Made by a program: the position numbers and the translations under genes. A stretch of DNA of 64,000 nucleotides. Origin: Sipunculus nudus. Lineage: Eukaryota > Annelida > Sipuncula > Golfingiida > Sipunculidae. The DNA is taken from the NCBI GenBank assembly GCA_026874595.1, contig CM049306.1:43524019-43588018 (forward strand). The letters run 5' to 3'. Below the pieces are notes generated by a model that ran no database searches, was not told the origin of the DNA, and worked only from the letters and a program-made list of their open reading frames with translations. Position 1 is the stretch's first letter, and each line of letters starts with the position of its first letter. Shown here piece by piece: positions 15,361-63,719 of this stretch.

Positions 15361-17619
15361 CTTTTTTCCATTCAAGATGTCAATCAAGATGTCCATAATA
15401 TCCAAATATTTTGTTGATTGCAAATGAAAATTGTGAATTGTAAACTGATAAACTTATAATGATAAAAATGTAGATAATTTACTACATAGGACTTTGATTT
15501 CACTGAATTTGTAACCCTGTGTCTGCACTGTACATAGTCTGATCGCCCTGTCTGTGGGTTTGGGTGTTTGTCTCTCACTCTTCTCTGAGAAGTCTGAATT
15601 CAATAATGATTTGGTAATTTGACTGACTTGGTCATTTTATGATGTATGGGCCATATTGGAACCCTATTGTTTTCTATACGACCGTGGCAACCAGGGGGCG
15701 CCGGTGACTATGAGACGGCTACCTTATATTTTGCTTTTGATGTCAGTTTGTTCTCAGTGTTAACATATATTGACAACTTGACTGCAGCTTCTTGAACAAT
15801 ATTAAGTTTTTATACTCCTTCCATTGTAGTGATATCAAGTTATTTTCTTTCTTTCTTATTGTCATGAAACAGATTAATTCTCAATAGGACGCATTCTGCA
15901 TTTTTATTTTCATGTGTGATAGTGCTAATTAGTGTATAATCATCCTTATACTGTTTTAATAGAGAAATCTGCTATGCCGACTATAGTGTTAAGAATAAAA
16001 AAATATGATAAAATATTATGACATAATGTTTGTCAATAAAAATATTTATTATTGAATATCCATGACTGATTAATCGATTGCTTGCAGGGTTCATTTCTAA
16101 ATAACTTGAATGAAAGTCCCTGGTGTATGAAAACAGTCATATGCAAATATGATGACAGTTATAATTACAAATAATAAATATATTAATTTGGTAATTAGAC
16201 TGATATTATCCTCAAAAGCTCTACCTTTTATTATTTAGTTCAAATATATCATCTAGCAGGTTTGGTGATATACCATGTACCAGTTTTGTACTTTGATTAT
16301 TGGTCAACCTGAATGCTGTTAATGCAATATTTTGTGTTTCTTTTAGTTAAAAGACCCCAATATAATCTGTTAAAACCTTGATATACAAACCTTGATGCTG
16401 TTTTGAGCTATAATCAATTAACACCTTGTGAAGGTAACATCCATGTACATGGTGCCTGCTGATGATGTGCGTTGGTAAGGATACAAAAGTTGCATTAGTA
16501 AAATAGAGCTTTAATTTATTAACTTCTTGTAAAAGTAACATCAAGATGCGTGCTGATGATATGCGTTGGTAAGGATACAAAAGCTGCATTTCGAAAATGG
16601 AGCAGTAATCAATTAACTCCTTTTGAAAGTAATATTGAATGATGTAGCATAATATAAATAAGTAAGGTACATAATTAGTCAGCTACACAGGTATATAGGA
16701 AGAGATAGACTTGGCGTCCTACATTACATGGCGAGAGCTTGGTTAAGTGTGATAGAGCGTATATATACTTCAGGCTAGGATTAGTATACTAAATTAAGAA
16801 TCTACCGTCTCAACTAGTTACCAATATAAGTTATATAGTCATATTCGGTATACATATGGAGCTTCCTACATTAAGTTTCAGTGTTTGGTATTTTTGCATC
16901 CAAAAGGTGTAACTTTGATGTTCAGCTGGAATGTGTGACCTTTTGATCATCAGTAGTGTTCAATAAATGCTAAGTTACCAATCCAGTCCAAATTTGTTCC
17001 TTTTGACCTTGAATATGACAGTGAGAAAGTTACTTGGACCCTTCTCTATGTTTTCATTACAAAAAAGTTGTATATTAAATAAGGGGCACTGTAAAAGCGG
17101 TATACAGGCGATAAAGGTTCTAAAGATACCAACATCCTGGTCAACATACCGACTATCTTGGTCCAATAGATTTATTACCAATAAGCTGAAGCACATTTGA
17201 CCGTGTACTTGCTCTTGAGCACATTGACGCTGTGTGTATCTAATTAAACTGAAATCATTATCAAAAGATACCCCAAGTAATTTTACAGATTTATTATAAA
17301 TTATTTCTATGAGTTAGTTGTCGAACTGTATAATTACATTAAAACCATCCATCGCAAATGTTTTAAATTTATCTGGATTAGCTTGTTATTATACAAGTAT
17401 AGCTCAACCATTTCCAAGTGGTAGATGATTCTGACATAAAGTATCTCTTTTAACACTACGATTTCACTATTATACTTATAAAGCCCAAAACACATCAACA
17501 CAAGTGTTGTGCATGAATCTTAAAATCTGGTGAAAGTCGCTTCTGTTTATTTATCTGATTATCCTTAGCAATCTGCAGATCGGACAGAAACCTGACAGGC
17601 ACCCCCCCCCCCCTCAAAG
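15361..17619. other. AT-rich intergenic DNA with a short tandem duplication
   Basis: No gene supported. Positions about 16406-16640 hold a 94-bp tandem duplication (the TGCTGATGATGTGCGTTGG block at 16457 recurs at 16551 and decays after that). A CTCF-like core (CCAGGGGGCGCC) sits at 15691-15702, and a poly-C run at 17602-17613. Confidence 0.5.
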
Positions 17620-18290
17620 TTTTGTTTACAGGATAGATACCAGTGCTTCCCGGAGGAAAACATAGTCGTATGAGTTTTAATTATAGGTTAGATACCAGTA
17701 CCATCTGTCGGAAAACCTGGGCGTATGAGTTTTGTTTACAGGTAAGACACCAGTGCCACCTGGCGGAAAACATAGTCGTATGAGTTCTGTTTACAGGTAA
17801 GATACCAGTGCTACCTGACGGAAAAAATAGTCGTATGAGTTTTGTTTACAGGTTAGATACCAGTGCCTCCTGGAGGAAAACATAGTCGTATGAGTTTTAA
17901 TTATAGGTTAGATACCAGTGCCAACTGTCGGAAAACCTGGGCGTATGAGTTTTATTTACAGGTTAGACACCAGTGCCACCTGGCGGAAAACATTGTCGTA
18001 TGAGTTTTGTTTACAGGTAAGATACCAGTGCCACCTTGCGGAAAACATAGTCGTATGAGTGTTGTTTACCGGTTAGATACCAGTGCCATCTGGCGGAAAA
18101 CATGGTTGTATGAGTTTTGTATACAGGTTAGATACCAGTGCCACCTGGCGGAAAATATGGTTGTATAAGTTTTGTTTACAGGTTAGATACCAATGCCAAC
18201 TACCGGGGGAAAATACACGTATGAATTTGCTTTCGAGTTAGATACAAGAGCCACCTGCTGAAAATATAACCGAATGAGCTTTACTTTTAG
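17620..18290 (+). repeat. 55-bp minisatellite, about 12 units, with a 220-bp higher-order period
   Basis: Units start every 55 bp (17620, 17675, ... 18170). The shared core is ACAGGTTAGATACCAGTGCC followed by ACCTGGCGGAAAACATAGTC. Variant units repeat in order: unit 2 (17675) and unit 6 (17895) share TTTTAATTATAGG and CCTGGGC, units 1/5 share GGAGG, units 3/7 share GACACC, and units 4/8 share GGTAAGATACC. This gives a four-unit, 220-bp higher-order repeat. The last two units decay. Confidence 0.9.
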
Positions 18291-24265: not shown

Positions 24266-26387
24266 ATGGAAGCTAAGAAAGGATTATTCCCGTTTTCCAT
24301 TGAAAACTTGCTGGCAGAGAAACATGAGCGACGACCTCTGACTGAACGGGCCCAGCTTCATACCCGGTCAGATCAAGCTCTGCAGTATCAGCCGGGAACG
24401 CATGAGGTGAGTTTTTGTTTTTAAATTTAACATCAATGAATAATTGTAACACTTATTTGTAACACGATTTTATTGCATTGCAGTGAACCTAATATAATGC
24501 TTTCCACGAATCTGCATGTGTACTCCATATAGGTTTTAAAACTTTCAAACAATAACTAAATGCATAATACGATTAATGTTTAAATGTACATATGTACATG
24601 TATGCATACAGCTACATTATGGAATATTCAGGTGATCAAATATTTTGAAAGTGGCGGGTGATTGGGTGAATAATTTTCTTTTAATTTTGCATGCATCATA
24701 TTTTTGGATATAGAAGTAAACGCCTCATGAAAGAAAACTGAGAAAATTGACGTTGACGTTTTTGTGTAAACTATTGCAAAAATCTTACGCTTAATTCTTA
24801 TCTATACAGGAGAGGAATTAAAAGCTTAATTGAGGTGGAACAACCTTATTAACGTCGCCATTTATGATTTTATGATCTATGATAAGGTCTGCTTTTAAAT
24901 GTAGAGATCTTTTTCTTTAAATAAGTATTTACATCAAAGGAGACTGGAGAGTTTGATAATAAACTTGGACAATGTAATTATTTTACCCGTGGTCTATTTA
25001 ACAAAAACACTTCGTTTGCATTGCCAATCAACTTCTGGCTAATTGATTTGAAACATCTGGTATAGGTGCTAATTGTTGTTTACACTGTAACGACCAAGCT
25101 ATATACAATGGTAAAAGAAAATGCCACTAATTGCATATCTGCTGACCATGTCAATCATAAAAGATCTTCATTGTGTGTTCAGCAGACCGAAGCCTCCGTC
25201 ACTCCCACGGGATATCCCCAGGTGGCGCCACAGCCGCGGGGTGTCAAGCGTCCCGGTCTTCCAGATTCCGAGGACAAAGAGAATGGAGAGACAGACTCCG
25301 ATCGCGCGTCCCCTGGTGTTACCTCTAGTGGTAAGTCCTTCTGTATTGATACTCAATATTACCAAAGAACATATTTTTATAAATATAATAAAACTTCATT
25401 GAGCGTAAACACGGCATGACCAAGTGTATTTTGTGGGCTATCTTAGCCCCCTTAAATCTTTTTGGTACAACTCCATGTCTCTGGTATCCATCCCGCATTC
25501 CAAGCATGATCAAGGTCATCCACTTAATGAGTGACCTTTTTTCGTTTGTGTATGACAAACTTTGATGAACTGCCATCTTTCTAGAGTGAGGATAAGCAAC
25601 CTCATCTCAGGTGCAAGCACTTATTATACTGAGCACAACTTATACGATCTCAAAATTTAGATGCCAGGACCGTGGAAGCTCCTCAATCTGTTTTCCCGCA
25701 TTTGCATATTATCTTAGTTTAAAAGGAAATGAAATACAACATCGCGGTGAGAACAAAATGAATCACGCTTTTTTATTGTTCATTAAAAAAGAGCACAACA
25801 TATAGAGAGGAGAATTTAACGAGTTTTATATTTTTATTTTGTTTCATTTTAGTTTCAGACACGTCGGCGATAGATATTCTCCATGAAAACAGTGCTCCAA
25901 GAAGAAAGAAAAAGGCGCGAACCTCGTTCTCAAACGACCAGTTGATGGAGCTTGAGAAGCGGTATCGTCTGCAGAAGTACGTGGGAGCAGACGACAGGTC
26001 GCGACTAGCAGACGAACTCGGGCTTAGCGACCAACAGGTACCAAATTCTAACATTTTATGTTTCATATATAAGCAAACCGTTAACAAATACATGTTAAAA
26101 ATTAAACCTTAAAAAATGGCTGTTGTAAAAATGAGTATATAAAGCTTCTGTGAATTTGTCCTCCCTTCAGGTTTGTAAAATTGAACTGCATAAAATTTAG
26201 CATTAACACAATGTACTTTAGAAGCACCATAGGGATGGAAGCACAACTTCTCCAACTTAAGCATATATATTAGATATTTTGGGTCATCAATCTTCACTTG
26301 TTTATTTCCTCTCTTTGAAACATGTAAAGCATGTATAAAATTTTGTGGCAGTGTAAGACTTGAATAAACATAACATATATAAACAAG

Positions 26388-26458
<71 letters not shown>

Positions 26459-26916
26459 TCTGCGTTTCAAACTGGAGTTAGTGTAATTATCTATATGAAA
26501 ATATTATGTTTTAGGTAAAAACATGGTTCCAGAACCGAAGAATGAAAGAGAAACGTCACTTCCGAGAAGTCGAGCAGTTGCAAGGAATCCCGTTTGGCGC
26601 CGGTATGCTACCAGTAGCGACATCTATGACGCCGGGCAGCTCCATTCAACAGACGACCATGCCGGTTCCCGTCACATCAGTCGCAGGTTCACTCATTGCG
26701 CCTTATGGATACCCACCATTTGGATCCGGTTTATCGCAGGATCCGCTTTCACGCTTGCAAGAGGCGACTTCAAAACACAACATACATGCTGGTTTTGTGT
26801 CTGCTCAGGCCGGACTATCGCAATTATTCCCCTTCCCAGCACCCGCCATGTTCAGTAACTTGTCTCGATTGCCGTGCCCACTCCCGATGCACCCAGCGAA
26901 ACCTGCAGCGTCTTGA
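24266..26916 (+). CDS. NKL-type (Bsx/Vent/Msxlx-like) homeobox transcription factor, four exons, 291 aa
   Basis: Coding exons are 24266-24406, 25183-25330, 25853-26037 and 26515-26916. All junctions are GT-AG, phases fit (0, 1, 0), and the 876 nt give 291 residues plus stop. Residues 115-174 are a canonical homeodomain: Arg5, Phe8, Leu16, Tyr20, Trp48, Phe49, Gln50, Asn51, Arg53, ending QVKTWFQNRRMKEKR. Lys46-Thr47 and RRMK are typical of the Bsx, Vent and Msxlx groups of ANTP-class NKL genes. The intron between homeodomain residues 44 and 45 is the common NKL position. Near the N-terminus (residues 7-17) LFPFSIENLLA resembles the eh1 motif that recruits Groucho/TLE, which suggests repression. 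The C-terminal ~115 residues are Pro/Met/Ser-rich. The first in-frame ATG of exon 1 is used. Exon 2 begins at a tandem CAGCAG acceptor, so one Gln may be optional. The exact family is unresolved; Bsx-like is my first choice. Confidence 0.9.
26390..26461 (+). repeat. (CT)n tract in the last intron of the second homeobox gene
   Basis: About 70 bases of CT dinucleotide ending 53 bases before the exon 4 acceptor at 26513-26514. It may act as, or extend, the polypyrimidine tract. Confidence 0.9.
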
Positions 26917-30600: not shown

Positions 30601-33600
30601 TTATGTTGTTTGAACAAACCATCTCTCCAGTTGCTTGTATTTTTGTTGCAACCAGTCGATGTTTCGTTGAATTGACGAAGGGGCGTTGTTCGAACCAGGG
30701 AGAGTCTCATTCTTTGGGATAACCCCAAGGAAACACTTCATTTCCCGAAGCTGCACATCTGTACTCATCGTGTTGGCGTATGCTGTCAAGTCTCGGCCTG
30801 TATTACCAGATCCCAGAATCTTAACATATGTCCTCCAGTTCTGTCTAAACCATAACCAACCAAAGTGGTAACCGACCCTGTTACCTGTTAGCGAGACCAC
30901 TGCTCTTCTGAACATGTATTGTTCATTCTTTGGAGGGTCCAGACTCATCTGTAACAGTTTATAGATCAAACCTACGTCTCGAGTGCATGCAAGTGCGTCC
31001 ACTATCATATTAAACTCCTCTGAAGACGCATTATTGAGAAGATATTGGCTCAAAAAGTGCCATCGACTTCGGCTTCCTCTGCGTATGGCTGCACACATAG
31101 CCACGCTCCTTATGTCTGGGTGGAATGGGAGTGACTGTGGATTTGACATCCAATCGTGAAAGTCTCTGCCAACGTCAGCAATACATTCTTCTAACTCTGC
31201 TTCACAAGCATTATTTGTTACGAGAGATTTTTTCAACTGTTTATCCATCAAATGCGGTGGTCCTTCGTACCGGTTCACTGCAAGATAAGACTTACGGATG
31301 AATCTTCTTATAAAGTTCTGGAAATCATCAAAAAGAGGCGTCAAGATAAGTTTTTTACCTATGGGGTACAGTACTTTATCTATAGTAGCCAGAACCACAT
31401 AGTCCTCTTCTCGCGGGATGTACCTCAGCAGCGAAAGTAAAGTGTTAAATTGTAACATGCCTTCTTCCACTAACACCGCGGCATCGTTGATCAGTTGCGC
31501 TCGGTTGTACACTGGGATAACCCGATGGTCCACCTGAAGCTGTCTGGAGAGCTGCATCCAAGAGGTTTGGTCATAATTCACTCTGTAATACCCTGACTGG
31601 TTAATATTTAACAAGTACCACAAAGCCTGTCCATTCAGGTTGTTGAGAACCATGTAATCGTTGGTCATCCAGGTAAACTTCCCGTCCCAACTGGTGTTGA
31701 TGCTATTAACGAAGGATAGTGGGATATTCCATTTCTCTCTTGGCGAGGGTGAGTTTATTTTGTTTTCCGTAATGAAACGTTCTTGTTTTAACACTAAGGT
31801 TCGGTTTCCAGGGCTCCATGTAGCATGCACTACGGGATATCCCGGTTGCATGATCCACGGTGTCATAAGATGAGACAAGTCGAGGCCCAGTCCAGTCTTA
31901 TTGGCTTCAATTTGGAAGGCATCGATTAAATCCATTCTGGTGACAGTGCCAAAGGCATGTAATCTAAGCAAGTTCTGCAAGGCTTGCCGAAAGAAGTTGT
32001 CTCCCAACAGGTAGTTCATCATTCGATAAAACGCTGCACCTTTATGATATGGAATTGAAGTAAACATTCCTTCTATTTCCGCAGAATTGTAAACATTTGG
32101 TACATGAAGCGGTTTGGTGTCACTCCGGGAGTCTCTGACCATTATAGCATGGATCCCTCGGCTCGGATGAACCAAAAACAGACCTTCAGCGTCAACAGCC
32201 GGATACATTAACTTAAAGATTTTAATTTGCAAATAAGTTGCAAGCCCTTCCTTTATCCACAGATCGGACCACCACCGCATGGTTACCAGATTTCCAAACC
32301 ATTGATGTGCTAGTTCGTGGATATGGATGTTGACACTCTGCTGATACACAGAGGTTTTTGTTTTATCGACCTGGTGGGATAGCAAGTAGCTTAAAATGTT
32401 AATCAACCCCCAGTTCTCAGTTCCGGTGAAAAAGTGATTGATGCTGACGATATCCAGTTTTGACATCTGGTAGGGATGATCAAGATAGCTTATAAGCGTC
32501 TCAAATCCCTTCTTATAAATGTCTAAATATATATTTGCACTACTGAGCATATCATGTGGGGTCCATATGCGGATAGGTATTCTTGTATTTGTACTTGCAG
32601 TAATGCTTGTATAATTACCGACGAAAATGTTAAGCAAATATGTGCTCATTTTTGCGGTTATATTATACGTATCAGCGAGCCAACCGTTTTCCTTTGTTTC
32701 AGTTTTAAGTAAAACTTCATTAGACAGGGAAACCAATGGAAGTTTCCGCAGGATTGTAACCGCAAATGTCGCTTTGTATTTGGGTTCATCGAAGCACGGG
32801 AACATCATTCTAGCATACGTTCCTTCAAATAATGAAGCGACAGCGTAGTGCTTAGTTCCATTCTTAGTATTATGAACATCATAAAACAAACCGAAGTGAT
32901 CGTTGTTGAGTTTACCTGTAAATTCAAGTTGCACATTATATCTTTTTCCAACTGGCAGAGTATGAGCGAGATAAAGGTGTAGAAATTCTTTTGCCTTTTC
33001 TACTTTCACACTTGTAACTGGTACAGCTTTTCTGTCCAGCAGATTTGTCACGACTAATTTACTAGGTGGAACTGTTAATCTTAGCATGTGCAAGGTGATG
33101 ACGTTTGTGTTTGCTTTCACGTGTACTCGGATATTCACGGATCCATCAAACGAATGATTCTTAGGGTTTGAACTGTATATATCTGGGGCTATGTGAAGAT
33201 CATAATGTTCTGGTACAAGAGATCCGGATAACATCAGGTCACTTCCTACAGGAGGTTTTGTCGGGAATAATTGTGGAGACGTTGGGGGTGGGGGTGTGCT
33301 GCTTGTGCTTGTGGTCACCCGTGCAGTTGTTTTCTTCCCGGACCCACCAGGCTTAGTTGGGTCACATGTACCAGTCGTCAAAGAGATGTCATCAAGGGCA
33401 ACATCTCCCTGATAGTCTTTCCCTATAATCCCAACAAACTGTAGCTCTGTAATGTCAGAGATAATCATTATTACCCCCTGTCGCCAGATGTCGCCCTGGG
33501 AGCCTGATATACTGAAGAGTGTTCGTTTTCCAGAGCCAGATAATCCTTCAATGACCAGACTTCCCACATGGTCACCCATCATGTGATACCAGAAGCGAAG

Positions 33601-34470
33601 ACACTTTTTATCAGCGTGCATGTTGATCCTCATGATCAGCCTGGCCTCCTGTCCGACTCTTCGGGGACTAGACGCTTCAATATACATGAAGTATCCGGAA
33701 CCTGTGGTATGGTCAGCCTTCGGACCTGTGTTTCCACTTGGTGTGGCACGATTCAGCCGAGTCCAATCAAAATCGTCTGATGCAGACTGGATGATATAAC
33801 CAGAGCATGAATCTTTGTCAAAGTTACAATCTATTAGAATAGTTTCATATATTTCACATGCATCTTTTGTGATCAAGATGTCATCGATTGCAATATCACC
33901 GGTGTAACCCGCACCGACGACCCCGGTAAACTCAACATTTTGTACTCCCACAGGTAATACACTACCGGCTTTTATCCAGTTTGGTCCTTGATTTCCTGAG
34001 ATTCTCATCAGCTCAGTTATATTGTTGTGAGAACGCACAGAGACCACCAGGGTACCCATATCCCTTCCAGACATATGATACCAAAAACTGAGACAGAATG
34101 GGCTGGTCGAGGCGGGTAGTGCAGGTGTGTAGGCTTGGGCCTTGTCGCCCGGTCTTCGTGGGGAAGAAGACTCGATATAAAAGTAAAACCTGTTACCGGT
34201 AGTGTGATCTCCTGAAGGGCCTGTTCCGGAGCTTGGTGTTTTTCCATGGTGGCGTGTCCAGTCAAATTGATCTGTTCTCGCCTGATTCAGACATGGGCTC
34301 TCTTCAAAACTGCACTTATAAATGAGTGAGGCTTGTCCACCCGATTTAGGCTGTCCATGACCCGTCCCAATGGCTAGCAAAAATATTACTAGACAGCGGG
34401 GTAAACTCAATGTTCTCCACCTGGGCATATTGCTCTCAGTCCCGACGCATTTATGGCTTGTAATGACCAT
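30601..34470 (-). CDS. Secreted MAM-MAM-M1 zinc aminopeptidase, intronless, 1289 aa
   Basis: A single open frame. A signal peptide is likely (hydrophobic residues 25-37); Met15 at 34428 gives a more typical signal peptide and may be the true start. Two MAM domains follow (about 53-205 with Cys53, 60, 126, 205; about 215-369 with Cys215, 222, 290, 369), then a Thr/Pro-rich linker (370-408) and a full M1 metallopeptidase unit to the C-terminus. The zinc site is His718-Glu-Leu-Ala-His722 with Glu741, correct HExxH-x18-E spacing; Tyr808 fits the catalytic tyrosine. The exopeptidase motif GAMEN is altered to TGTEN (682-686), keeping the Glu-Asn pair that binds the substrate amino terminus. M1 enzymes remove N-terminal residues from peptides. 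MAM domains mediate adhesion or oligomerisation. No membrane segment follows the signal peptide, so the product is probably extracellular. The lack of introns in 3.9 kb suggests a retrocopy or intron loss. There are no internal stops, so it is probably active. Confidence 0.93.
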   Translation of the reverse strand: MVITSHKCVGTESNMPRWRTLSLPRCLVIFLLAIGTGHGQPKSGGQASLIYKCSFEESPCLNQARTDQFDWTRHHGKTPSSGTGPSGDHTTGNRFYFYIESSSPRRPGDKAQAYTPALPASTSPFCLSFWYHMSGRDMGTLVVSVRSHNNITELMRISGNQGPNWIKAGSVLPVGVQNVEFTGVVGAGYTGDIAIDDILITKDACEIYETILIDCNFDKDSCSGYIIQSASDDFDWTRLNRATPSGNTGPKADHTTGSGYFMYIEASSPRRVGQEARLIMRINMHADKKCLRFWYHMMGDHVGSLVIEGLSGSGKRTLFSISGSQGDIWRQGVIMIISDITELQFVGIIGKDYQGDVALDDISLTTGTCDPTKPGGSGKKTTARVTTSTSSTPPPPTSPQLFPTKPPVGSDLMLSGSLVPEHYDLHIAPDIYSSNPKNHSFDGSVNIRVHVKANTNVITLHMLRLTVPPSKLVVTNLLDRKAVPVTSVKVEKAKEFLHLYLAHTLPVGKRYNVQLEFTGKLNNDHFGLFYDVHNTKNGTKHYAVASLFEGTYARMMFPCFDEPKYKATFAVTILRKLPLVSLSNEVLLKTETKENGWLADTYNITAKMSTYLLNIFVGNYTSITASTNTRIPIRIWTPHDMLSSANIYLDIYKKGFETLISYLDHPYQMSKLDIVSINHFFTGTENWGLINILSYLLSHQVDKTKTSVYQQSVNIHIHELAHQWFGNLVTMRWWSDLWIKEGLATYLQIKIFKLMYPAVDAEGLFLVHPSRGIHAIMVRDSRSDTKPLHVPNVYNSAEIEGMFTSIPYHKGAAFYRMMNYLLGDNFFRQALQNLLRLHAFGTVTRMDLIDAFQIEANKTGLGLDLSHLMTPWIMQPGYPVVHATWSPGNRTLVLKQERFITENKINSPSPREKWNIPLSFVNSINTSWDGKFTWMTNDYMVLNNLNGQALWYLLNINQSGYYRVNYDQTSWMQLSRQLQVDHRVIPVYNRAQLINDAAVLVEEGMLQFNTLLSLLRYIPREEDYVVLATIDKVLYPIGKKLILTPLFDDFQNFIRRFIRKSYLAVNRYEGPPHLMDKQLKKSLVTNNACEAELEECIADVGRDFHDWMSNPQSLPFHPDIRSVAMCAAIRRGSRSRWHFLSQYLLNNASSEEFNMIVDALACTRDVGLIYKLLQMSLDPPKNEQYMFRRAVVSLTGNRVGYHFGWLWFRQNWRTYVKILGSGNTGRDLTAYANTMSTDVQLREMKCFLGVIPKNETLPGSNNAPSSIQRNIDWLQQKYKQLERWFVQTT

Positions 34471-40229: not shown

Positions 40230-41507
40230 TTACAGCTTTCTCTTGTTCATTTCCGACTTGGTCGGTTTCAGGTAACCAGGTCTCTGTTTCTTCTTCTTCT
40301 TTACCTTTAAAATCTTTTTTCCAAAGGGGTCGCAGCCTCCCAGCTGGGCCTGGATGCTGTCAAGTTGTGTTGGATCAATGTCAAACTGTAATGACCTGCG
40401 TCTCAGCCAGCTTGGTCGCGTATCATCGTTAGACTCCTCTGAATAAAGCCTTACCCGCTCATGAGGTTTCTGGATACATGCTCCATTTAGGAAACTTTTC
40501 TCCGTCCCTTTTGGCGGAACCGGAGCGTCCAGAAAGAATATGGGAGGAAATGCGTTTTCTCCCTTCCTTGCCACATCCGGTAAAATATGCTCTTCCGGAA
40601 TGCTTTCAAGGTCGTTTGACCCGCTGCTCAGTCGGTGGCTCCGTTTTCTTGACTTTATATTTACCGCTGGTTTTGTTGAAACACCTCCTTGGCACTGTCT
40701 CTGGGCCGTCTGGTTAATATTGGAGTCTTGTGTTGGATTAACCTCATAGAAAACACAATCTGTCTCAGAACCATAAACTAACCATTCATTTACGCGATCA
40801 AGGGCCACTTTTTCTTTTTCACTGTTGACATATATTACATCCTCCTTTGTTTCGTCACGTGTCCCATGTCCATTCGATAACGGAAGAAGAAAAGCGCTCC
40901 CACGCCTTCGGCTCAGCTCAGCATTCCATCTTTCTGGTTTGTCCTCGGTATCTTCTTGATTGTCTCTCCACGCTTTGTCCTCCCTGTTTTGTGTTTCTGT
41001 GACAGAAGAAACAATTTGCTTTTTGAATGACAACGATTCTGGTTGCAAAACCGACTTCCGAACACCACTGTTTTGGTTAGTTAGGATAACTCTTGGTGAC
41101 GAACATACTCCGTTTATTTCTGCCTTGCTATCATTCTCTTTGTGCGTGCTCTCACCCGATGCATTTGCTTCACCGGAGCTGGTACCATGAATTGCTTTGG
41201 TCTCTTGTTTCGTTGTTTCGCCAGAGGAAGAGTCTTTGATCTTCTTCTGCTTGAGTTTTGCGCCAGCTTTAGGCTGACCACAGCGGGTCTGTTTCTTCTC
41301 GGGTAATTTCAAACCCTCGAGTCGGGAGTACTTCTTCATGATCTGTTTGCGTTGTTTTTCAAACAACAGTTCCCACCTCATGTGTGTTTTCAGAAGATAA
41401 TGCCTCCGTCTCAAACTCTCTCCCTCCATTGTTTTACATTTAATGGCCAAGTCTTGCCTCGCTCTAGAGCTCAGAGCAAACATTGCCTTCCTCTTTAGTA
41501 GGTCCAT
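40230..41507 (-). CDS. Uncharacterised basic, low-complexity protein, intronless, 425 aa
   Basis: I do not recognise this protein. The frame opens at 41600, but a TATA-like box lies at 41579-41589, so the Met at 41507 (MDLLKRKAMFALSS..) is the better start. Residues 1-70 are rich in Lys/Arg/Leu and probably helical (RHYLLKTHMRWELLFEKQRK). The middle is Ser/Thr/Glu/Lys-rich and looks disordered. The C-terminus ends in a strongly basic tail (KILKVKKKKKQRP..) that could be a nuclear or nucleolar signal. No Cys/His cluster, membrane segment or catalytic motif is visible. The length of the frame, its non-repetitive composition and the flanking TATA and ATTAAA signals favour a real gene. It may be lineage-specific. 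Confidence 0.7.
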   Translation of the reverse strand: MDLLKRKAMFALSSRARQDLAIKCKTMEGESLRRRHYLLKTHMRWELLFEKQRKQIMKKYSRLEGLKLPEKKQTRCGQPKAGAKLKQKKIKDSSSGETTKQETKAIHGTSSGEANASGESTHKENDSKAEINGVCSSPRVILTNQNSGVRKSVLQPESLSFKKQIVSSVTETQNREDKAWRDNQEDTEDKPERWNAELSRRRGSAFLLPLSNGHGTRDETKEDVIYVNSEKEKVALDRVNEWLVYGSETDCVFYEVNPTQDSNINQTAQRQCQGGVSTKPAVNIKSRKRSHRLSSGSNDLESIPEEHILPDVARKGENAFPPIFFLDAPVPPKGTEKSFLNGACIQKPHERVRLYSEESNDDTRPSWLRRRSLQFDIDPTQLDSIQAQLGGCDPFGKKILKVKKKKKQRPGYLKPTKSEMNKRKL

Positions 41508-41578
41508 GGCTAACAAATATAGAACTCTTATATAGCAGCAGCGGAATAAATCGTGATTGAGCTCATCGGCTAAAAATA

Positions 41579-41589
41579 TTTTATATATA
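41579..41589 (-). promoter_or_regulatory. TATA-like box of the basic-protein gene
   Basis: The minus strand reads TATATATAAAA, 72-82 bases upstream of the start codon at 41507. It predicts transcription start near 41555, downstream of the more distal Met at 41600. Confidence 0.45.
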
Positions 41590-41599
41590 TACCGCAACA

Positions 41600-44500
41600 A
41601 TAACTTTATGTTTTACCAACTGGTAATGTTTATTGTATGAAAGAGGAGAGAGTGCATGAACGTTATAAAGTATTACGTACACAATGTGTTTGATGAAAGT
41701 GTGGTGAAGCTTAACATATGCTTTAAGTTGAACAAGTACAACAATTAAGGGAACATACCAGAATAATTTCGGTTTGATTAGTTGTTGACCAGGGGTGACA
41801 TTGGCTTTAAGAAAGCGAGGCGATTAATTAGTGTGGTAACCTTGACGTTAAATCGCTTTCGCCTGTGGGTCTGTCGGTGACGTTTTCCAGACGCGCGTAC
41901 TCTTTGTTTACGTTTTGATATTGTTGACGGAAAATGATGAAATGAACCGACTATTTATGACCGAGTCGATGTATTTACTCCAAGTCCGTGCAGCATTTAA
42001 AGCCTTGGCATTTTCTGTTCTGTGACTGCTCTAAATAAAGTCGTTAAAATTTTAAAAATTTCCACGCAAAGCACATGTACAATACATGGCGATGAAAGTT
42101 AAGCAGAAATATGCATGATGGTACATGTGAGTTTATCTTATTGTCTAGGGAATCTGGTAAATATTATTATATTATGAAGTTTAGAGGAGAGTATTCGTAG
42201 TCTTAGAAAAAGAAGGGGGGGGGGGGGGGGGGGCAGCACCCTAGCACAGGTGAACCCGTGTGACGGGTGTGCTAGTCGCCATGACAACCCGACTCGGTAG
42301 GCACTAATAACTGGGCTGGTAAGCCTACTTGAGTCGTGATACAAGCAACATCGAGGAATGCATCGCTGTGGTCTTCCATCATGTTGTATTCATATTGTGG
42401 TAAACACCAACGGATGGTGAATTAGAACACAAGTGAATACATGTGAACTCACAACCCAAACTGGAACTCCGTCTCTGTATCGCGTACAAGTTGGCTGCGG
42501 CCAGTAACCCTTGAGAGCCATGCCTGTATTCATGCGTTCAGAAATGCACCAAACATGTGGAGAGGTTTACCAATGCGGAGTTAAAACGGAACTTTTTTCG
42601 ATCATGTTTGGAGATGTTAGAAAGTATGCTAAAATAGCTAACTATTAGTTTGGTTTATGTCAATTGACAGTGTACATGTAGACCATGAGGCGTTTAATGA
42701 CAAAAATGTTTGCATCCTCATAGAGCCTTATAGTGCGTTCCTAGCTGAAGGATGTAACGACACTCTCACAGCCAGTACTCTGGTCGTAGACTAATGTGAG
42801 AGGGCCGGGATGGCGCTAGTGTGCCAGAAGACTTTATACATAACCCACATTTATCGGCATAAAGTGTATATTTTTCTGTTTCCCAGATATTTGAGTCCAA
42901 ATAAGAGAGGGCGTGTCCTCTAAATCCGCTCTGGCCTGTGTGTGAAATGTTACCTTTACTCATAGCAAGCCACGTGCTCTTGCAATTTATAAGGGCCCCG
43001 CGATGGCTGGGATCTTAGAGTAATTTCCATTCATCTGTCTGCCGCTTCTTTTCTACGCGCACATTATCTCGAGAACTGTTCTTACGATTGGCGTTTATGA
43101 TACTTTTAACAGTGGCGGATCCTGAAATTCGAGAACGGGGGGGGGGGGGGGGGGGTGGTAATACTGGGTTGCCGTTTGACAGGTATTATGAAAACTTATT
43201 AAATTGTGGATTTAATTTTTGTTTTGTAAATTATATATATAAGTATATATATATATATATGTATGTATGTATGTATGTATGGAGAAAGATATTGCTTGCA
43301 CACTGAGATTTTGCTTACAGACAGGCTAATAGGAAGGCGGTGCCTCACTCCCTGACGAGTGCGATTTGGGGGGGGGGGGGTTCTTAGGTATTATGATCCA
43401 GCAGTGTAATAACGTATAGAACCCTCCCTCGTTATAGAAATAATTAGATACTATATCCTAACGGAGCAAATCACACAGCTGTTCTTTTATATCTTTTTAT
43501 ATCCCTAATTATTTTGAAATTAATAAATAAAAAAAAAAAATTGAAAAATGAAAATGAATCACGAAAATTGGGAAAATAAATATATAAAATAAGAGATGCT
43601 GCAGCTCAAGCGGGGGGGGGGGGGGGGGGGCGGAGGAGGGTTGCTCTTAATTTCTTCTTTGCAAGTTCTTCCCCGTGAAAGGATGCGCTGTCAAATTTCA
43701 GATCTATCATATTTTTAAGATGTGCGCAAGGTATACTTGAATTCATTGTATACACACACTCCTTGCGTAGAAGTGCATTTCGACGATTTGTAAGTCATGT
43801 TTATTGAGTCCACATGACCCATATAACGGTACGGCCAGGATTTGTTTATAATGAGGTTTATTTTACATGGCCATTTAATTAACCTGCACGTCGATTAACT
43901 GCAACATTTATGTTTTCAATTATTAAAGGTATTTATTTACCGATTTTGTGAGGCGAATATACACAAATCTGCGCCAAGAGCAAACTGTTTTCTTAGCCCA
44001 TGTCCCACTTTTACATTTTCTCATTCATACGTTTGCACATACAGAGTTACCTCCCACGGTACTAGCCCTCTCTGGTACATTTTTTTTCAACAAACAAATC
44101 AAGTCCTTTCATGCGTTTCAATTACTGGTGGCCCATTACTGAATTTAATAGATCACCGGAGGATATAGCACATACACGGAGGACATGCATAGTGACTTCA
44201 TCCGAGATTTCATCCGAATGTTACGGTAACCACAAAATGTCTGCGAATGAAAGTGCCCCGCTAAGGGTCAGACGTCTTATTTCTGATGTATAAGAACCTG
44301 TCTCTTAACTCACGGAATATAGATCACCTTGATTTCAATTCAGTTATGTAGAGAAATCTCATCTTGCCGTGACATAAAGCTTGAACTTTTGAGTCCAACA
44401 CCAAAAACAAAATCATATGCAACAAATTTACATATTTCATGCTCTCTCTATATCTGCCTCTATCTCTCTTTCTCTCTGAACACAGGTCAAATTAAGCTTG

Positions 44501-46836: not shown

Positions 46837-49800
46837 TCACAGGTACTTGATTCCTTTCTGGTCCATATGTTCTTCAAGTGTTCGTATAATTCTCTGCACA
46901 GCCAGAAAATAAATAATGAAAAACATAAACCTTGCTGCAAAAATGATTTAATGTACAGCATTCTAGAAATGAATCGAATCATTAAAGTTTGATATTTCTG
47001 CAAATGTTTAGCTATTCACAAGCACTGGTCATTTTTAGGTCTTGAAAAACTAGGGCACCGCAAAGTGGAGCATCCCCTCACATGGGAGCATAATTAGACT
47101 GGGTGAATGACAGAGTGTGAAAATCAAGAGGGGAGCTCTGTGACCTTTACCTTTGACCCTGTGACCTCAAACTTGACAGGGTTCTTCATCTGTGGGTGGG
47201 TGAACGATGTGTGAAAGATGAAAGTTTTGGTCAAAATGTTTGGCTTAAAATACGTCCACAAGCTTTTAAAAGAAGTGACTCCTGTGGCCTTGACCTTTGA
47301 CCCTGTGACCTAAAAAACAAAAGGGTTCTTCATCTGAGAGTGGGTGAGGGATGTAAAAGATGAAAGGTTTTGGTCAGACAATTTGGTTTAAAATGGCTCC
47401 ACAACCTTTTTCAAGAAGTGGATGCCCTGGCCTTGACCTTCAACCCCATGACCTCAAATTGATGGGGTTCTTCTGTGAATGGGTGAGCCAATTGTGAAAG
47501 GAGAAAGGTTTAGGTCAAATGACTTGGTTTAAAATCAATCCACAAGCCAATTCCAAACAGACAGACAAGACAACAACAGGAGGAATTACATATCCCCTCC
47601 TACATTTGATGCATGTGGATAATAAATATAATAGTCAAGAAGAACATATTTAAGTATCTGACTTATGATTTTGTTTGTCCAACTACTTATTAAAACAGTC
47701 TTGAAAATGTACGCACAAAAACTGTCCTCCAGGGAAAGTCATTTTTTAAGACATGATGTCATGGCTTTAGTGCAATATTTGAAATCACTGTTTTCATTAA
47801 TAAAATAAAAAAAAACCAGAAAATGTGGGCCTGAACATACCCTTCTTTCCATTGCTAAGGCCATTTCATAAGCTGTCTTTCCATACTGTAAGGAAATAAA
47901 AGAAATATGAATTAACAGGGATTAACATTACACCTGGAGGATCTACATCATGAAGTGAACTTATATAGCAAAACTACTCAAAATTTACTGCAGAACTGAA
48001 TATGTGTATTTTATATTCAGTAAAACACAATATGGTTTGTCTGTAGAAGTTGATCAGCGTGAATGCAGTCCTGCCACCTATTGGGCATAAACAAAACTAC
48101 CTGGAAGCATACAAATGAGCATTAATTGCTACCGGTTCTATGACTATAAAAGTTTATAATGACACTTTAATTTTACAGCAGGTTAGATTCCTTAATATTT
48201 CTTTCTAAACATTGAAACAGATTGTGGTTATGTGTTAGTTAAATTCAATTTCATGACATGGAAGAGATCCTTACAAGAAGTATTAAATCATAATATACTC
48301 CCTCACCTCATTTTGTATGCTCAAATCGGCTCCTTTATTTAACAGCAGTTCAACCAAATTTTGATGACCGTTGACCACAGCTATCATCAGCGTGGTTTTG
48401 CCGTCTTTATCTCGAATATCAAGATCAGCACCTTTCCGCAAAAGAAGAAAGGCACAGTCTCGGTCCCCTCCCACAGCCGCTAAAAATAAAACACAACATA
48501 AAAAATATAAGTTTAAAGTCTAGCTTATATTTAAAAGAAACACAAAGGGAAATATACATCTTCTCCCTTGGTAATTAGCAAGTTGATGACAAGTGATCCA
48601 AGAGTCATCATGCCCAGCTGATTGCTAAATTAGCTCCAGTGGTAATAGAATATATCTGTCAAGTGGCTTGTACATGTTTTTTTGTCTGGAACATCACATA
48701 AATGATAAATCTTTCACAAGCAACTTAATTTATCACCTGAAATGATTTCACTTCAGTTGTTTATCTACTCTTTGTAAAATTAGGTCAGACTAACCTAGTT
48801 TTTGGTGTGGTAAGAGGTGATAACGTCACTCACCCACTCTGAGAAGTGGTGTCCAGCCGTTGTAGTCTGTGGCAGTTATGTCAGCTCCGTCATCGATCAT
48901 CCACTCAATCAACTCAAGATTTTTCCCGTCCATGGCCCAGTGGAGTGCTGTGGAGCCACCTTTGTCCTGCATTTCGTACTTTGCTCCATGATGCCGGAGT
49001 TCCTTCACTGATTGCAACTTGCCTGAATATGCTGACATCATTAAACTGCAAACGTAAGAACTTTTTAATCACATCACACTTAAGCATAAAAATGTACAGA
49101 TTAATGTTATTTAAACCTTTTACTCCTGGGCAGTGGAATGATAAAACAGCCCTCTCTGCTGAGTGGTTTATAACCGCCCATATGAGGTAGGTGGGTTTTC
49201 TTCAGATCCTCCTGGTTCCTCCGTCTCTAAAGATTACCAAATACCACCATCCAAGCCATGTCAAGTGTCTTGCCTTAGTTACCATAACCAGTGAAACAAT
49301 CTAGGTAAATAAATAAAGTTTGGGCAAAAAAAATAAAAGGTATGGTTCTCGGGCACCGCCCGCATAAATTTTAAACTACTACATCAAACATTTTATTTTG
49401 ATTTTCAACAGAAATATTTAGCTCCAGCCGCTAGGACATTTCTTTCAAGAAGATAAAATCATCATTTTTGATAAAATTTCCTTTGTTTTACTTGTTTAAA
49501 AATAAATCTGTTATTATCATGCTTTCCCTTATCATTTGACATTTTTATCAAAACAAACAAAAAAAAAATAAAAAAAACTCCCGCCCGCATTGATTTATGA
49601 AAAAAATGTGTCTGAGCACCTAACCTTATTTTTTTGCCTTATAAAACCATAAAGTGTTCTGAGGGCTTCTCAGTATAAGACTGACACCTATATATAACTC
49701 TCATGTTTATAGATATTTTGAAATCTTACTTACTGCACCATATGTGGTAACTAATGAAATCTGGTAATGGTACTTTGAATGCAGGTTGATACACTACCAG

Positions 49801-50619: not shown

Positions 50620-52060
50620 ATAAAGGACAGACAGACAGAGTGACAGCCAGACAGACAGACAGATGCCAAACACTACAAAACAAATCCCAACCAGGGTAAG
50701 CATGAGAGCAATCACTGACCAAAATTTGAATGAAATGGGATAATATTTAGAAAAATTATCCCAAAGAAACACAAAACCTGACAAACTGACAGACTGAGTG
50801 ACAGACAGACAGAAATAAGCCAGACACTTCAAAAAAAATCCCAACCAAGGTTAGCATGAGAGCAATCACTGACCGAAATCTGAATGACATCAGATAACAT
50901 TTAGGAAAGTAATAGCAGGGAAACGAAAACATGACAGACGGACAGATAATGTGACAGACAGAAAGACAAAAGCCAGAGACTCCAAAACTAATCCCAACTA
51001 AGGTATGTATGAGAGCATTGTCTGACCAAAATTTAAATGAAATCAGATAATATTAAGGAAAGTAATGGCACAAACACGAAAACCTGACAGAGGGACAGAC
51101 AGAGTGACAGACAGACAGACAGAAGCCAGACACTCCAAAACCAATGCCAACTAAGGTAAGCATGAGAGCAATCACTGGCCAAAATTTGAATAAAATCAGA
51201 TAATATTTAGGAAAGTTATCACATGGAAATGAAAACCTGAAAAACAGACAGACAGTGACAGACAGACAGACAGAAGCCAGACACTCCAAAACCAATCCCA
51301 ACCAAGGTATGCATGAGAGCAATTACTGACCAAAATTTGAATGAAATTGGATAATATTTAGGAAAGTAATCGCACGGAAACAAAAACTTGACAGACAGAC
51401 AAAGTGACAGACAGACAGACAGACAGACAAAGGCCAGACACTCCAAAACCAAACCCAACCAAGGTAAGCATGAGAGCAATTACTGAACAAAATTTAAATG
51501 AAATTGGATAATATTTAGGAAAGTTATCGCACGGAAACGAAAACCTGACAGACAGACAAAGTGACAGACAGAAGCCAGACACTCCAAAACCAATCCCAAC
51601 CAAGGTAACCATGAGAGCAATTACTGAACAAAATTTAAATGAAATTGGATAATAATTAGGAAAGTTATCGCACGGAAACGAAAACCTGACAGACAGACAA
51701 AGTGACAGACAGAAGCCAGACACTCCAAAACCAATCCCAACCAAGGTAAGCATGAGAGCAATAACTGAACAAAATTTAAATGAAATTGGATAATATTTAG
51801 GAAAGTTATCGCACGGAAACGAAAACCTGACAGACAGACAAAGTGACAGACAGAAGCCAGACACTCCAAAACCAATCCCAACCAAGGTAAGCATGAGAGC
51901 AATTACTGAACAAAATTTAAATGAAATTGGATAATATTTAGGAAAGTTATCGCACAGAAACGAAAACCTGACAGACAGACAAAGTGACAGACAGAAGCCA
52001 GACACTCCAAAACCAATCCCAACCAAGGTAAGCATGAGAGCAATTACTGAACAAAATTTA
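50620..52060. repeat. 141-bp minisatellite, about ten units
   Basis: Four right-hand units are exactly 141 bp apart (CACGGAAACG or variant at 51530, 51671, 51812 and 51953). Left-hand units are more diverged and longer where the (CAGA)n part has expanded. Each unit carries AACCTGACAGACAGACAAAG, ..CCAGACACTCCAAAACC.. and ..GAGAGCAAT-ACTGA... The 225-codon minus-strand frame (51358-52035) exists only because 141 is divisible by three. Confidence 0.92.
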
Positions 52061-52464
52061 AACTAGATGACCAGAGGTCACGCGCTTGCCGGAAATGACA
52101 CTAAGTTAGACAGATGAACGAGCAGTGTCAAAGTGAAAGAAAATAATCCATAGTTTGTGAAGAAAGAACCAATATTAACAAAGTTCTAAAGAAAATAAGA
52201 TTTTGATATATTTTGATCACCTTGACCTTGACCTTTGACTTATTTGAATAATAAACATAGGACTTCCAGATATCATCACGATATATGACAAGTGTAATTT
52301 ACAAAACGATTCCTTCAAAACTGTGGCCAGTAGAATGCTACATGTGAGACGCAAGAACCAGGAAGCAGGCGAAATTGAGGACAACTGACAAACAGGCAAA
52401 CATACTGACCCAAGATTGAGAACAGATGACTTAATCATGTTATGAAGAAACCTAAGAGGAAGAT
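52061..52464 (+). repeat. Leader of the downstream repeat family
   Basis: It opens with CTAGATGACCAGAGGTCACG then CGCTTGCCGGAAATG, a block also at 54126 and 63720. It also includes CCTTGACCTTGACCTTTGAC and the GTGAGACGCAAGAACC block that recurs in the following units. Confidence 0.7.
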
Positions 52465-53640: not shown

Positions 53641-56020
53641 TGGCCTCCAGGGCAAGATTACTGAAATCTCGAAATATCTCGTTTGACGAGATATTATACG
53701 AGATATTGCGAGACTCTTAATAGAATCTTGTAGTACTAGGTGAATGCTACCTGAAGCAAAAAACTAGACCTCTGTAGCTTTAAAACTGACAAATTTAGAA
53801 AAATATCAGCACTTTTCCCCAAAAATGCGTTACCATGGTTACCGCAAATTGTGTCAGCTACACACCAGAAAACAGGCCTTGGAATGACGATTAAAATGAG
53901 CTACTGTTGAAGTAGATACGACCAATATTAACACAGATATGAACAAAAAACCGTTTTGTATACTTTCGATGACCTTGACCTTGACATTTGACCTATAATG
54001 CCCAAAAACAATAGGCCTCCAGGACTTTTGCTTGTCTACCAGCTGTATAAGTTTGAAAGCAATTGCTGGAAAATTGTGGCCTGTAGAGAGTACACAGACA
54101 GACAGACAAACAAACAAACAAACAGACTAGACGACCAGAGGTCGAACGCTTGCCGGAAATGGCTGGAAATAAGACAGCGAAACAAGCAGGACAAACTGTC
54201 GCTTTTCTATCAATTGAATGACTTTCAGAGCGATTGCTGGAAAGTTTTGCATGTTGAATGGCATATATCACACAAGAGACCATGAAAGTAGACTTGGCTC
54301 AAAACAGACAGATATACTGACACACCTGAGATAACAGACTACCAGAAAAAAAGTTGGGAACGTAAATAGAAGCAAAATGAGCTATAGTTTTAGTAGGTAG
54401 AGTTTATAGTGTCGGAGGTATGGCCAATATATGGTAGCGGCCATATCCCAAACATTAAAAATTTCTTTTGAGACTTTAATGTAAGAAATAAGATGTTGTT
54501 CCAGTTCCAAAAGGATTCCCTCAAAACTGTGTCCTGAAAATTGCTAACTGCAAGAAGCAAGGTCCAGCAAAGCAGGCGAAATTTAGGATCACTGACAAAC
54601 AGACAGACATACTCAAAAAATGACACAAGAATAAGACCAGATGACCTACTCAGATTATCGAGTAGATTCAGAGGAAGAAAATAAATCATAGTTTTCAATT
54701 GGCTACACTGCTTTTTTAAAGTTGCATTTACCCAATCTCTTCTTATAAAACTGGCAGAAACCTACCATAGAATAATTCTTGTAAAGTTTAAACCAATCAG
54801 CCTAACAGTTTCATCATAAAACAGAGTATAACCTGGAGTCTAAAATAACATTTTCCCTTGTAAAAAACAGATAAATGCAAGTGGCGCCACCAATACCTCA
54901 ATTTCAGATATGCCATATGAGACAAATATAGGTATAAAATTTGGTAACGACAGCTCTAGCCGTTTCTGAGATTTTAATTTTAGTTTGGCAGATGACTAAG
55001 TTCAACCTCCTGTTTAATCTCCGAACTGAAACCAATCGAACAAACTTGAGATAGATTGTTCAAGAGATCATTTCTTAGAAATATTGGCCTATTTGGCCGG
55101 ACAGTTTCGTAGAAGAAAATTTTTAAAGCTTTTTTAGCTTTTTCCCTATATAATCTCAGTAAATGCAGAAAGCCAAAAAATAAATAAAATCCGATAGTGC
55201 TTTTCAGATGACTGTTTATTTACAAAAAAAATTGGTAATGCTAGTTCCTGCCGTTTTTGAGATAACTATGGTTAACCTACAGACGACGGACGATGCTGCA
55301 CCATAGCATAAGCTCACAGATTCGCTAATAATCTGTTTCGAGATATTACTGTAAGACATATGATTTAATAGTTTAAAAAAGATTCTTTCAAAACTGTGGC
55401 CTGTAGAATTCTATTAGTGAGACGGAAGAACAAACAAGCAGGCGAATTTGAGGACAACTGACAAACAAACAGACATACTGACAAAGGGACACAAGATGAA
55501 GACAAGATGACTTAACCAGGTCATGGGGAAGACTCAGAGGAAGAAAATAAGGTATAGTTTATGTAATTGAGGTTTCCAGTTTTGGAGATATGGCCAAATA
55601 ATGATATATTGGGGATGTTCGACTGCAGCGCCCTCTAGTGGACATATCCTGAAGACGACAAATGCGTTTCGTGATATTAGTGAATGGCATAAGATGTAAT
55701 CGTTTCAAAAGGATTCCTCAAAAAATCTTGCTTGTTGATTGCTATATGTGAGATGCAAGAACCAGCAAGTAGGCGAATTTGAAGATAACTGACAAACAGA
55801 CAGACATACTGACAAAGTAACACAAGATGGACACCAGATGACGTTACCATATTTTGCAGAAGGCCAAGAGAAAGAAAATAAGTTACTGTTTGTGTAACAT
55901 AGGTTTACTCTTACGGAAATATGTCCAAAAAATGATTTGTTTGGATGTGTCTAGTGCAACGCCCCCTAGCAGCCATATCCGGAAAATGAAACATAAGTTT
56001 TGAGATATTAGTGTAAAACA
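53641..56020 (+). repeat. Degenerate relatives of the 331-bp and 1270-bp repeats
   Basis: 53650-54120 resembles the ..TCTCGAAA..CTAGACCTCT..TTACCATGGTAACC.. part of the 1270-bp unit. 54120-54400 matches 63715-64000 closely. 55330-56020 holds two decayed units of the 331-bp type (GCGCCCTCTAGTGG at 55628, ACGCCCCCTAGCAGCC at 55960). 54700-55320 is less clearly repetitive. Confidence 0.65.
55626..55641 (-). promoter_or_regulatory. CTCF-core-like motif
   Basis: The plus strand reads cagcgccctctagtgg, so the minus strand reads CCACTAGAGGGCGCTG, a full match to the vertebrate core. Confidence 0.35.
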
Positions 56021-56920
56021 TAACAAACAAACAAACAAACATACGCAACTGACCAATATGCTTGCGGAAATCGAAGATTTCCGGCAAGCAATAAAGTTTG
56101 GATTGACTGTGCCTCCAACATGTATGATCATAGACAGGGCCCGGAGAGGCCGTCACGCACCGCTGCACACGCCGGCCGCCCACCGTAAGGACCCTGTCGC
56201 CACTTGCGGCAATTGCGCGGGTCTTCGTGGTTTGGCGAAAAACGGCGCGAGATTTGACGAGACTTACAATATGACCCCTGAATGTGACTGCGAGTGTCAG
56301 GCGCTACCCAACGCTGAAAACCATGTGTCTGTAGCGTAAAAAACGACAGAATTATAGGCATTTCTTTGAATGGTCTCGTGTTCTCGTTTCACGAGAAACG
56401 GTGCGAGATATGACGAGCCTTTCTATTGAATGACTAAGAAGTAAACTAATGCTATCTAACGCCAAAAACCAGAGCGTTCTATCGCAAATATTGACAGAGA
56501 CAGAAGCAGGAACACTCCGTATTTCAGATTGTCAAGTTTAACCCCAAAATTTGGTAACCATGGTAACGGCAGCACAAGGCTAAATGTACGAAGGAATAAG
56601 GCAATGATCCTAGTTTTAGATGCGACAAAAAAAATTCTTCTATGCTAAATATTTTTTTAGATATTGCGGAAAAATGATACGTTGTAGTGTTTCCAGTACC
56701 ACGCCCCCTGGTGGCTATTTCCGAAAAATGAAAAAACAAGTTCGAGATAATACAGAACAACAGAAAATATGTCACTTTCAGAACCTTAGCTGTAAAACTG
56801 CCACCTGTAAATCATATTTAATGAAATCTCGAAAAGTCTCATTTGACGACAAATGGCACGAGATTTTGCGAGACTTACATTAATTTCGCATAGAGCATAT
56901 TAAATGCTACGCAATACAAA
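56021..56920 (+). repeat. 1270-bp satellite, truncated first unit
   Basis: It begins in the AAAC/CAGA simple repeat of the unit and runs through the GC-rich core to ..GCAATACAAA. It carries the best-preserved hairpin (56059-56090). Confidence 0.9.
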
Positions 56921-62074: not shown

Positions 62075-62076
62075 AA

Positions 62077-63347: not shown

Positions 63348-63719
63348 AAACTAGACCTCTCTAACTTGAATAATGAGAAATTTGGAGGGAAATTTTCGAA
63401 TTTTCTGAATTTCCCCCAAAAATACGTTACCATGGTAACCATTGACCGGAAAAATTTGCCAGCACTTGGAAAGCTAACATAGTGAGGAATAAAATGAGCT
63501 ACAGATTATGCGGCTACGATTATTATTGACAAAGATATGAAGAAAGTAAAAATTTTAGGTTTTTTGGTGACCCTGACCTTGACCTTTGACCGATCATGAC
63601 CAAAAACAATAGGCTCCGAGGAGAACCAATCTTACACTTGATGCATAAGTTTCAGAGCGATTGCTTAAAAACTGTGGCCTGTAGCGCGTGTACATACAGA
63701 CAAACAGACAGACAAACAA
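63348..63719 (+). repeat. 1270-bp satellite, partial unit 4
   Basis: It follows the unit as far as the (CAGA)/(AAAC)n stretch, then switches to the CTAGACGACCAGAGGTCG family at 63720. Confidence 0.9.

Follow-up and report, generated by a model that had tools for sequence, protein, structure and literature searches.

A fused MAM-MAM-M1 gene and its product

The window analysed here is a stretch of 64,000 nucleotides from the genome of Sipunculus nudus (1.43 Gb in 153 contigs; C1:43524019-43588018), and its minus strand carries a gene (34470..30601; positions without a contig label are those of the window) that encodes, in a single frame of 1289 codons, two MAM domains followed by a complete set of family M1 peptidase domains. 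The frame is uninterrupted in the list of open reading frames, and the genome search places it within a 1290-codon frame with zero stops; when its bases are shuffled 200 times as mononucleotides and each shuffle is read in three frames, no open run exceeds 176 codons. A preceding description made from the letters alone (the sequence-only reading) had reported one uninterrupted 1289-codon frame without stating the strand, and was correct in this respect; its claim that the gene is intronless holds for the coding part, and an intron could still lie in the 5′ untranslated region.

The Pfam domains of the product are, from the N- to the C-terminus, MAM, MAM, Peptidase_M1_N, Peptidase_M1 and ERAP1_C, and the last three, all above the Pfam cut-offs, place it in family M1. 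The MAM profile matches two stretches (E 4.1e-70, 235.1 bits), and both contain the four conserved cysteines of the family, as the sequence-only reading had it: C53, C60, C126 and C205 in MAM domain 1 (residues 53-205; 33856..34314; E 6.1e-31 in the genome MAM search) and C215, C222, C290 and C369 in MAM domain 2 (residues 215-369; 33364..33828). The two domains share 62 of 153 aligned residues. The nearest of 17 solved MAM relatives is MDGA1 (E 4.6e-30; also the nearest for MAM domain 2), which is glycosylphosphatidylinositol-anchored by its PDB name and contains no peptidase, followed in order by enteropeptidase, a scavenger receptor SR-C-like protein, neuropilin-1 and meprin alpha. A linker rich in Thr, Ser and Pro (residues 370-413; 33232..33363), recognised by its composition and likewise described earlier, leads to the M1 part. 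The latter consists of the N-terminal domain with the motif FEGTYAR (PF17900; residues 419-612; 32635..33216; E 3.4e-41, 141.8 bits), the catalytic domain (PF01433; residues 649-872; 31855..32526; E 6.2e-49, 167 bits) and an ERAP1_C-like domain (PF11838; residues 951-1248; 30727..31620; E 2.8e-60, 204.9 bits), in which C1089, C1096, C1126 and C1162 align to cysteines of a solved aminopeptidase.

Among PDB entries, the M1 part scores best with three chains named 'Aminopeptidase' (383 bits), followed by aminopeptidase N (APN; CD13/ANPEP; up to 373 bits, with most of its chains at 339-373 bits among the matches listed), ERAP1 (up to 348), LNPEP (316), ERAP2 (300) and aminopeptidase A (APA; ENPEP; 292). 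APN, a member of MEROPS family M1, shares with the window protein the M1_N, M1 and ERAP1_C domains, the HExxH-x18-E and YxKG motifs and the aligned C-terminal cysteines, but has a GAMEN motif of normal length. APN is held by a type II membrane anchor and contains no MAM domains, which are also absent from APA, ERAP2 and IRAP/LNPEP. No paper describing a MAM-M1 fusion was found in open-access text, which is weak evidence; in the available excerpts, the two families are mentioned separately (PMC5460417, PMC4398375, PMC6733828, PMC5237233).

The N-terminus comprises three arginines and a short hydrophobic segment, then a polar stretch and MAM domain 1; the signal-peptide-like segment spans residues 15-40 (34351..34428), with Met1 and Met15 both being candidate starts. 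In a 19-residue hydropathy scan, the maxima are 1.62 at residue 332 (inside MAM domain 2), 1.44 at residue 21 and 1.26 at residue 1025, and no hydrophobic tail is found in the C-terminal 60 residues. Because a signal-like N-terminal segment is combined with a C-terminus that lacks such a tail, the product is probably secreted rather than signal-anchored; the earlier suggestion of a secreted enzyme is thus reasonable, with the signal peptide itself being a prediction from sequence and hydropathy. Meprins and enteropeptidase, both among the solved MAM relatives, are likewise extracellular proteases that carry MAM domains, although their peptidase domains are of the astacin and trypsin types, respectively, rather than M1; they are the functional parallels for the MAM tandem, whose most likely role is to localise the enzyme.

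A diverged second copy

A search of the genome with the full protein detected a second intronless MAM-MAM-M1 gene (G000:C4:48746994-48750827), a 1292-codon open frame without stops that is matched over residues 11-1286 of the window protein at 63% identity; the rest of the genome is matched only in pieces (36 of 288 candidates scored). Neither this paralogue nor the one-residue deletion described below had been given in the sequence-only reading. The second copy contains both MAM domains, with their cysteines kept in the alignment as judged by eye, the linker and the full M1 part. The two contigs, C1 (111 Mb) and C4 (98 Mb), are taken for different chromosomes.

The products of the two copies are identical in 803 of 1270 aligned residues. 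Over the 1270 aligned codons, the Nei-Gojobori method (NG86) yields a nonsynonymous divergence (dN) of 0.24 and a synonymous divergence (dS) of 1.07, that is, dN/dS ~0.23. By domain, dN/dS is 0.25 for MAM 1, 0.15 for MAM 2, 0.30 for M1_N, 0.15 for M1, 0.19 for ERAP1_C and 0.78 for the linker, these being ratios of NG86 values that are rough, with 57% of the synonymous sites differing. The M1 catalytic domain (68% amino acid identity) is the best conserved part compared and the linker (33%) the least conserved of the six. Judging from these ratios, purifying selection clearly acts on both halves of the fusion. The chance that the window gene is a decaying pseudogene or an assembly artefact appears negligible: no evidence for either was found, the open frame of 1289 codons stands against the 176 of the shuffled controls, and the second copy, diverged but alike in anatomy and low in dN/dS, largely contradicts both.

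A shortened loop beside an intact zinc site

The sequence-only reading took the exopeptidase motif GAMEN to read TGTEN (residues 682-686; 32413..32427). This comparison is out of register by one, and three substitutions within GAMEN are ruled out by PDB alignments and spacing counts, which show instead that the loop is one residue short, TGTEN being TGAMEN minus one residue. By manual count, the spacing from Lys-x-Asp to Glu-Asn is 16 residues in the window copy vs 17 in APN and APA, and TGAMEN of APA aligns against TG-T-EN. The spacing is also 17 in 11 of 12 bacterial or viral-contig relatives, the 12th (L012) being without the motif. Of these 11, six come from viral contigs and are nearly identical copies, and among the remaining five, four belong to Acidobacteria-type metagenome-assembled genomes. 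A scan of bacterial genomes with the protein gave five loci, 25-33% identical in the best segment, that served as loop-length controls and four of which also entered an alignment; the full protein had no match among the viral contigs. From the motif Glu to HExxH there are 33 residues in the window copy vs 32 or 33 in the relatives.

The gap falls between T684 and E685 in all seven PDB alignments among the matches listed (more than 100 chains matched), which span three kinds of molecule, an 'Aminopeptidase', ERAP2 and LNPEP. The latter two are the best PDB matches over the segment that includes the loop and the zinc site, and both have, unlike the window copy, a full-length GAMEN. A MAFFT alignment of five sequences sets the gap a few residues earlier; because the two kinds of alignment place it differently, the exact position is ambiguous by a few positions, whereas the loss of one residue is, in the sequences aligned, unambiguous. 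The C4 copy, with FFPALENWGL where the window copy has FFTGTENWGL, is of equal length but differs in letters. An in-frame sequencing artefact is excluded as the cause of the short loop because the paralogue shares it. Only Glu-Asn of GAMEN is kept in the two copies, TGTEN and PALEN.

This shortening was compared with the loops of other M1 genes in 29 stretches chosen from the genome matches, of which 27 show the motif and 26 are measurable. The spacing from the Asp to Glu-Asn is 14 in both intronless copies, 15 in 25 of the 26 exons and 16 in the remaining one, presumably LTA4H-like by its letters. The motif reads GAMEN in 17 exons, GGMEN in three, and DAMEN, YAMEN, GATEH, DGMEN, AAMEN and FAMES in one each; motif substitution is thus common in this genome, and shortening is seen, among the 26 exons measured, only in the intronless pair. 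Because the motif letters differ from GAMEN in nine of the 26, membership in the M1 fold stands for the pair, and it is the label 'exopeptidase' that the short motif would make less secure. Clusters of multi-exon M1 matches, some with DAMEN, YAMEN or DGMEN, lie on C9 at 4.25-4.41, 12.68-12.98 and 17.10-17.25 Mb. The FAMES exon (L062; G000:C9:17181598-17181756) has HAIAN instead of HExxH and probably belongs to a catalytically dead paralogue.

The zinc site is intact, as the sequence-only reading had stated: HELAHQWFGNLVTMRWWSDLWIKE (residues 718-741; 32248..32319) conforms to HExxH-x18-E, with H718, E719, H722 and E741 in the positions characteristic of family M1. The YxKG tyrosine and the Glu of FEGTYAR are also kept; the former, Tyr808 of SIPYHKG (32038..32058), placed by alignment to solved aminopeptidases, is taken here to be catalytic. 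The latter, E549, maps by hand to the amine-binding Glu215 of APA (PMC2919393).

What the shortening may do can be gauged from the characterized enzymes, as far as the excerpted reports go. The backbones of the loop Gly and Ala together with the Glu hold the substrate, and the preceding residue likely influences specificity (PMC3244404); in IRAP, G428, A429 and N432 matter for binding (PMC2604898), and the conformation of the loop is related to the cleavage of cyclic peptides (PMC8047434); in APA, the Thr before the loop is tied to specificity (PMC2919393). A literature search on the loop of laeverin found no paper. APA resembles the window copy in the Thr-Gly that precedes the loop Glu, but its loop is one residue longer and its overall score is lower; an APA-like acidic specificity derived from Thr-Gly was considered and dropped, because the paralogue carries Pro-Ala, so that Thr-Gly does not characterise the pair. 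A loop shorter by one residue should reshape the side of the cleft near the first residues of the peptide and may change what the enzyme cuts. The altered substrate preference proposed in the sequence-only reading is therefore plausible, but for a different reason, namely a one-residue deletion common to both copies rather than a TGTEN substitution.

Several observations weigh against an active enzyme with a selected, remodelled loop. The letters differ between the copies (TGT vs PAL), which possibly indicates relaxed constraint, and NILS follows the motif in the window copy where APN and APA have YRE; the loop survey covers the M1 exons retrieved by the search, with more diverged exons outside its scope. 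Furthermore, the window copy has Gln seven residues before HExxH and seven residues after the third ligand, both of which are, by manual mapping, positions of the Arg-Glu second shell of PfA-M1 (PMC3244404, in the part available). These features, the one-residue deletion in a segment that in IRAP and PfA-M1 takes part in binding the substrate (PMC2604898 and PMC3244404, both as excerpted) and the presence of a degenerate M1 paralogue, L062, in the same genome would fit a pseudoenzyme, in which the M1 fold, presented by the MAM domains, is retained to bind or to dimerise while the short loop no longer positions peptides for cleavage. Such a loss of activity nevertheless appears unlikely: both copies have the zinc site, the YxKG Tyr and the Glu-Asn of the motif, the C4 copy retains Arg at the -7 position (by eye), the Lys before the third ligand is also present in ERAP2 (KEG), and the catalytic domain is the most conserved of the parts compared. 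Because of this conservation and the intact zinc site, catalysis with an altered substrate preference is ranked first, with somewhat better than even odds, and the pseudoenzyme second.

Absence of introns and the probable origin of the pair

Coding introns are absent from the pair where relatives have them. The M1 family search of the genome gave 67 matches (all 77 candidates scored), only two of which span the domain from position 6 or earlier to position 218 in one frame, namely the window gene and C4:48748236-48748898; the others are mostly exon-sized pieces. The expectation that other M1 genes are split into exons is borne out by splice sites read by eye in two multi-exon paralogues, in which the GAMEN exon has its acceptor at the Asp of D-MIA and its donor after HExxHQ. 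Similarly, among 149 MAM matches (150 of 314 candidates scored, a non-exhaustive search), only the four that belong to the intronless pair extend, with the frame open, over 150 or more of the 158 positions, and those elsewhere mostly stop close to profile positions 41 and 100-112, although some are longer.

Both halves of the fusion lack every intron expected of them, which suggests that an mRNA already fused and spliced was reverse-transcribed, and retroposition is likely to be the origin of the pair. The case derives from intron absence, because other traces of retroposition were not found and count against it: the 2.5 kb downstream of the window copy contain no poly-A run of at least 8, and up to 2.5 kb from it no direct repeat makes a convincing target-site duplication, those present being AT runs and four 11-bp matches. 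A multi-exon MAM-M1 parent was not found among the M1 matches and the non-exhaustive set of MAM matches in the genome, because the MAM match nearest to any other M1 match lies, by comparison of coordinates, ~0.75 Mb away, on C13. The claim of a retrocopied or intron-lost fusion gene thus gains from the intron-bearing relatives and the second intronless copy, but lacks a living multi-exon parent. An old copy would be expected to have shed its poly-A and target-site marks, and the family is old because two copies with dS ~1 are present.

The same gaps (no parent, no poly-A run, no convincing target-site duplication) would be accounted for if the introns had been lost in place, by repeated loss or by gene conversion with cDNA, and the second copy had arisen by an old interchromosomal DNA duplication. 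This scenario seems improbable, as all the expected introns of two MAM domains and of the whole M1 part would have to be gone together, in two places. Moreover, nucleotide homology between the copies extends from 135 bp inside the window coding sequence to 18 bp before its end, and outside the coding sequence (6 kb on the window side vs 2.5 and 3.6 kb on C4) they have nothing in common but AT repeats and two short matches, of 21 bp and of 34 bp, the latter in an AT-rich stretch. Age could explain this too: a dS near 1 means that synonymous sites are almost saturated, and eroded flanks would likewise mask a duplication at the DNA level, a further point against retroposition. The second copy could represent a second retroposition or an old DNA duplication.

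The intronless state contrasts with the neighbours in the window because these are spliced: a homeobox gene on the plus strand (25762-26112 and 26515-26916) has an intron with GT/AG ends within the homeodomain, and an ankyrin-repeat gene on the minus strand (48283-48519 and 48826-49068), which we take to resemble FANK1, has two exons with splice-like ends. Additional MAM exons upstream of the gene were sought and rejected, since a Pfam scan of 34.5-48.4 kb in the three minus-strand frames found only ankyrin; no further MAM match better than E 5 occurs elsewhere in the window, the 15.6-30.6 kb side having been scanned in one minus-strand frame. The window also contains a second homeobox gene (2785-3270, minus strand), an open frame of 456 codons (40230-41600, minus strand) that matches no Pfam family at E 0.01, units of ~1.27 kb in tandem at ~99% identity that are repeated a few kb further on (56016-59460 and 62075-63721), and tandem arrays that have, by self-match offsets, periods of ~150 bp (50626-52062) and ~55 bp (17618-18290). 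Neither an Rfam family (at the gathering threshold) nor a tRNA was detected in the window.

From the sequences we infer retroposition, secretion, tethering by MAM domains, catalysis and changed specificity, which combine in the explanation considered best, at a probability of roughly 0.6: a retrogene pair under selection whose product is a secreted M1 enzyme, tethered by its MAM domains and remodelled in the exopeptidase loop. The pair would stem most likely from a MAM-MAM-M1 gene that was fused beforehand and whose spliced mRNA was reverse-transcribed. Its product would carry a signal peptide when synthesised, be secreted and stay close to cells or the matrix through the two MAM domains, and the M1 part would act as a zinc peptidase in which E719 activates the water and Tyr808 assists. 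The loop, having lost one residue while keeping Glu-Asn, would reshape the cleft beside the first residues of the peptide, resulting in a substrate preference unlike that of APN or APA. A bolder version, a new selected clade of secreted MAM-MAM-M1 enzymes, spread by retroposition, in which the deletion in the otherwise widely conserved exopeptidase loop opens the cleft beyond the first residue, admits blocked, cyclic or internal peptide bonds and shifts the M1 fold from an aminopeptidase to a different mode of peptidase action, is a long shot.

Compatible with the best explanation, and tentatively conceivable, is that the pair is ordinary for its lineage, with intronless MAM-MAM-M1 genes common in the phylum and the short loop a normal variant of the clade. 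The age of the family would agree with this, as would the routine occurrence of intronless retroposed families in some animals: in molluscs, intronless retroposed nAChR genes are numerous and amount to 44 of the 132 in C. gigas and to 120 of the 217 in P. f. martensii (PMC6896357). If S. nudus were an animal of this kind, intronlessness alone would not be striking. A literature search on intronless aminopeptidase N found no paper, and the lack of any open-access description of the fusion speaks, weakly, against an ordinary member.

The GAMEN loop helps set the recognition of the amino end of the substrate, and a naturally selected shorter loop in two old paralogues offers a test of how far the exopeptidase identity of M1 enzymes depends on it. 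The fusion with MAM domains suggests another route to the extracellular placement of an aminopeptidase, one that needs no membrane anchor. The intronless pair, in turn, suggests that retrogenes can persist even when they encode a large ectoenzyme of several domains.

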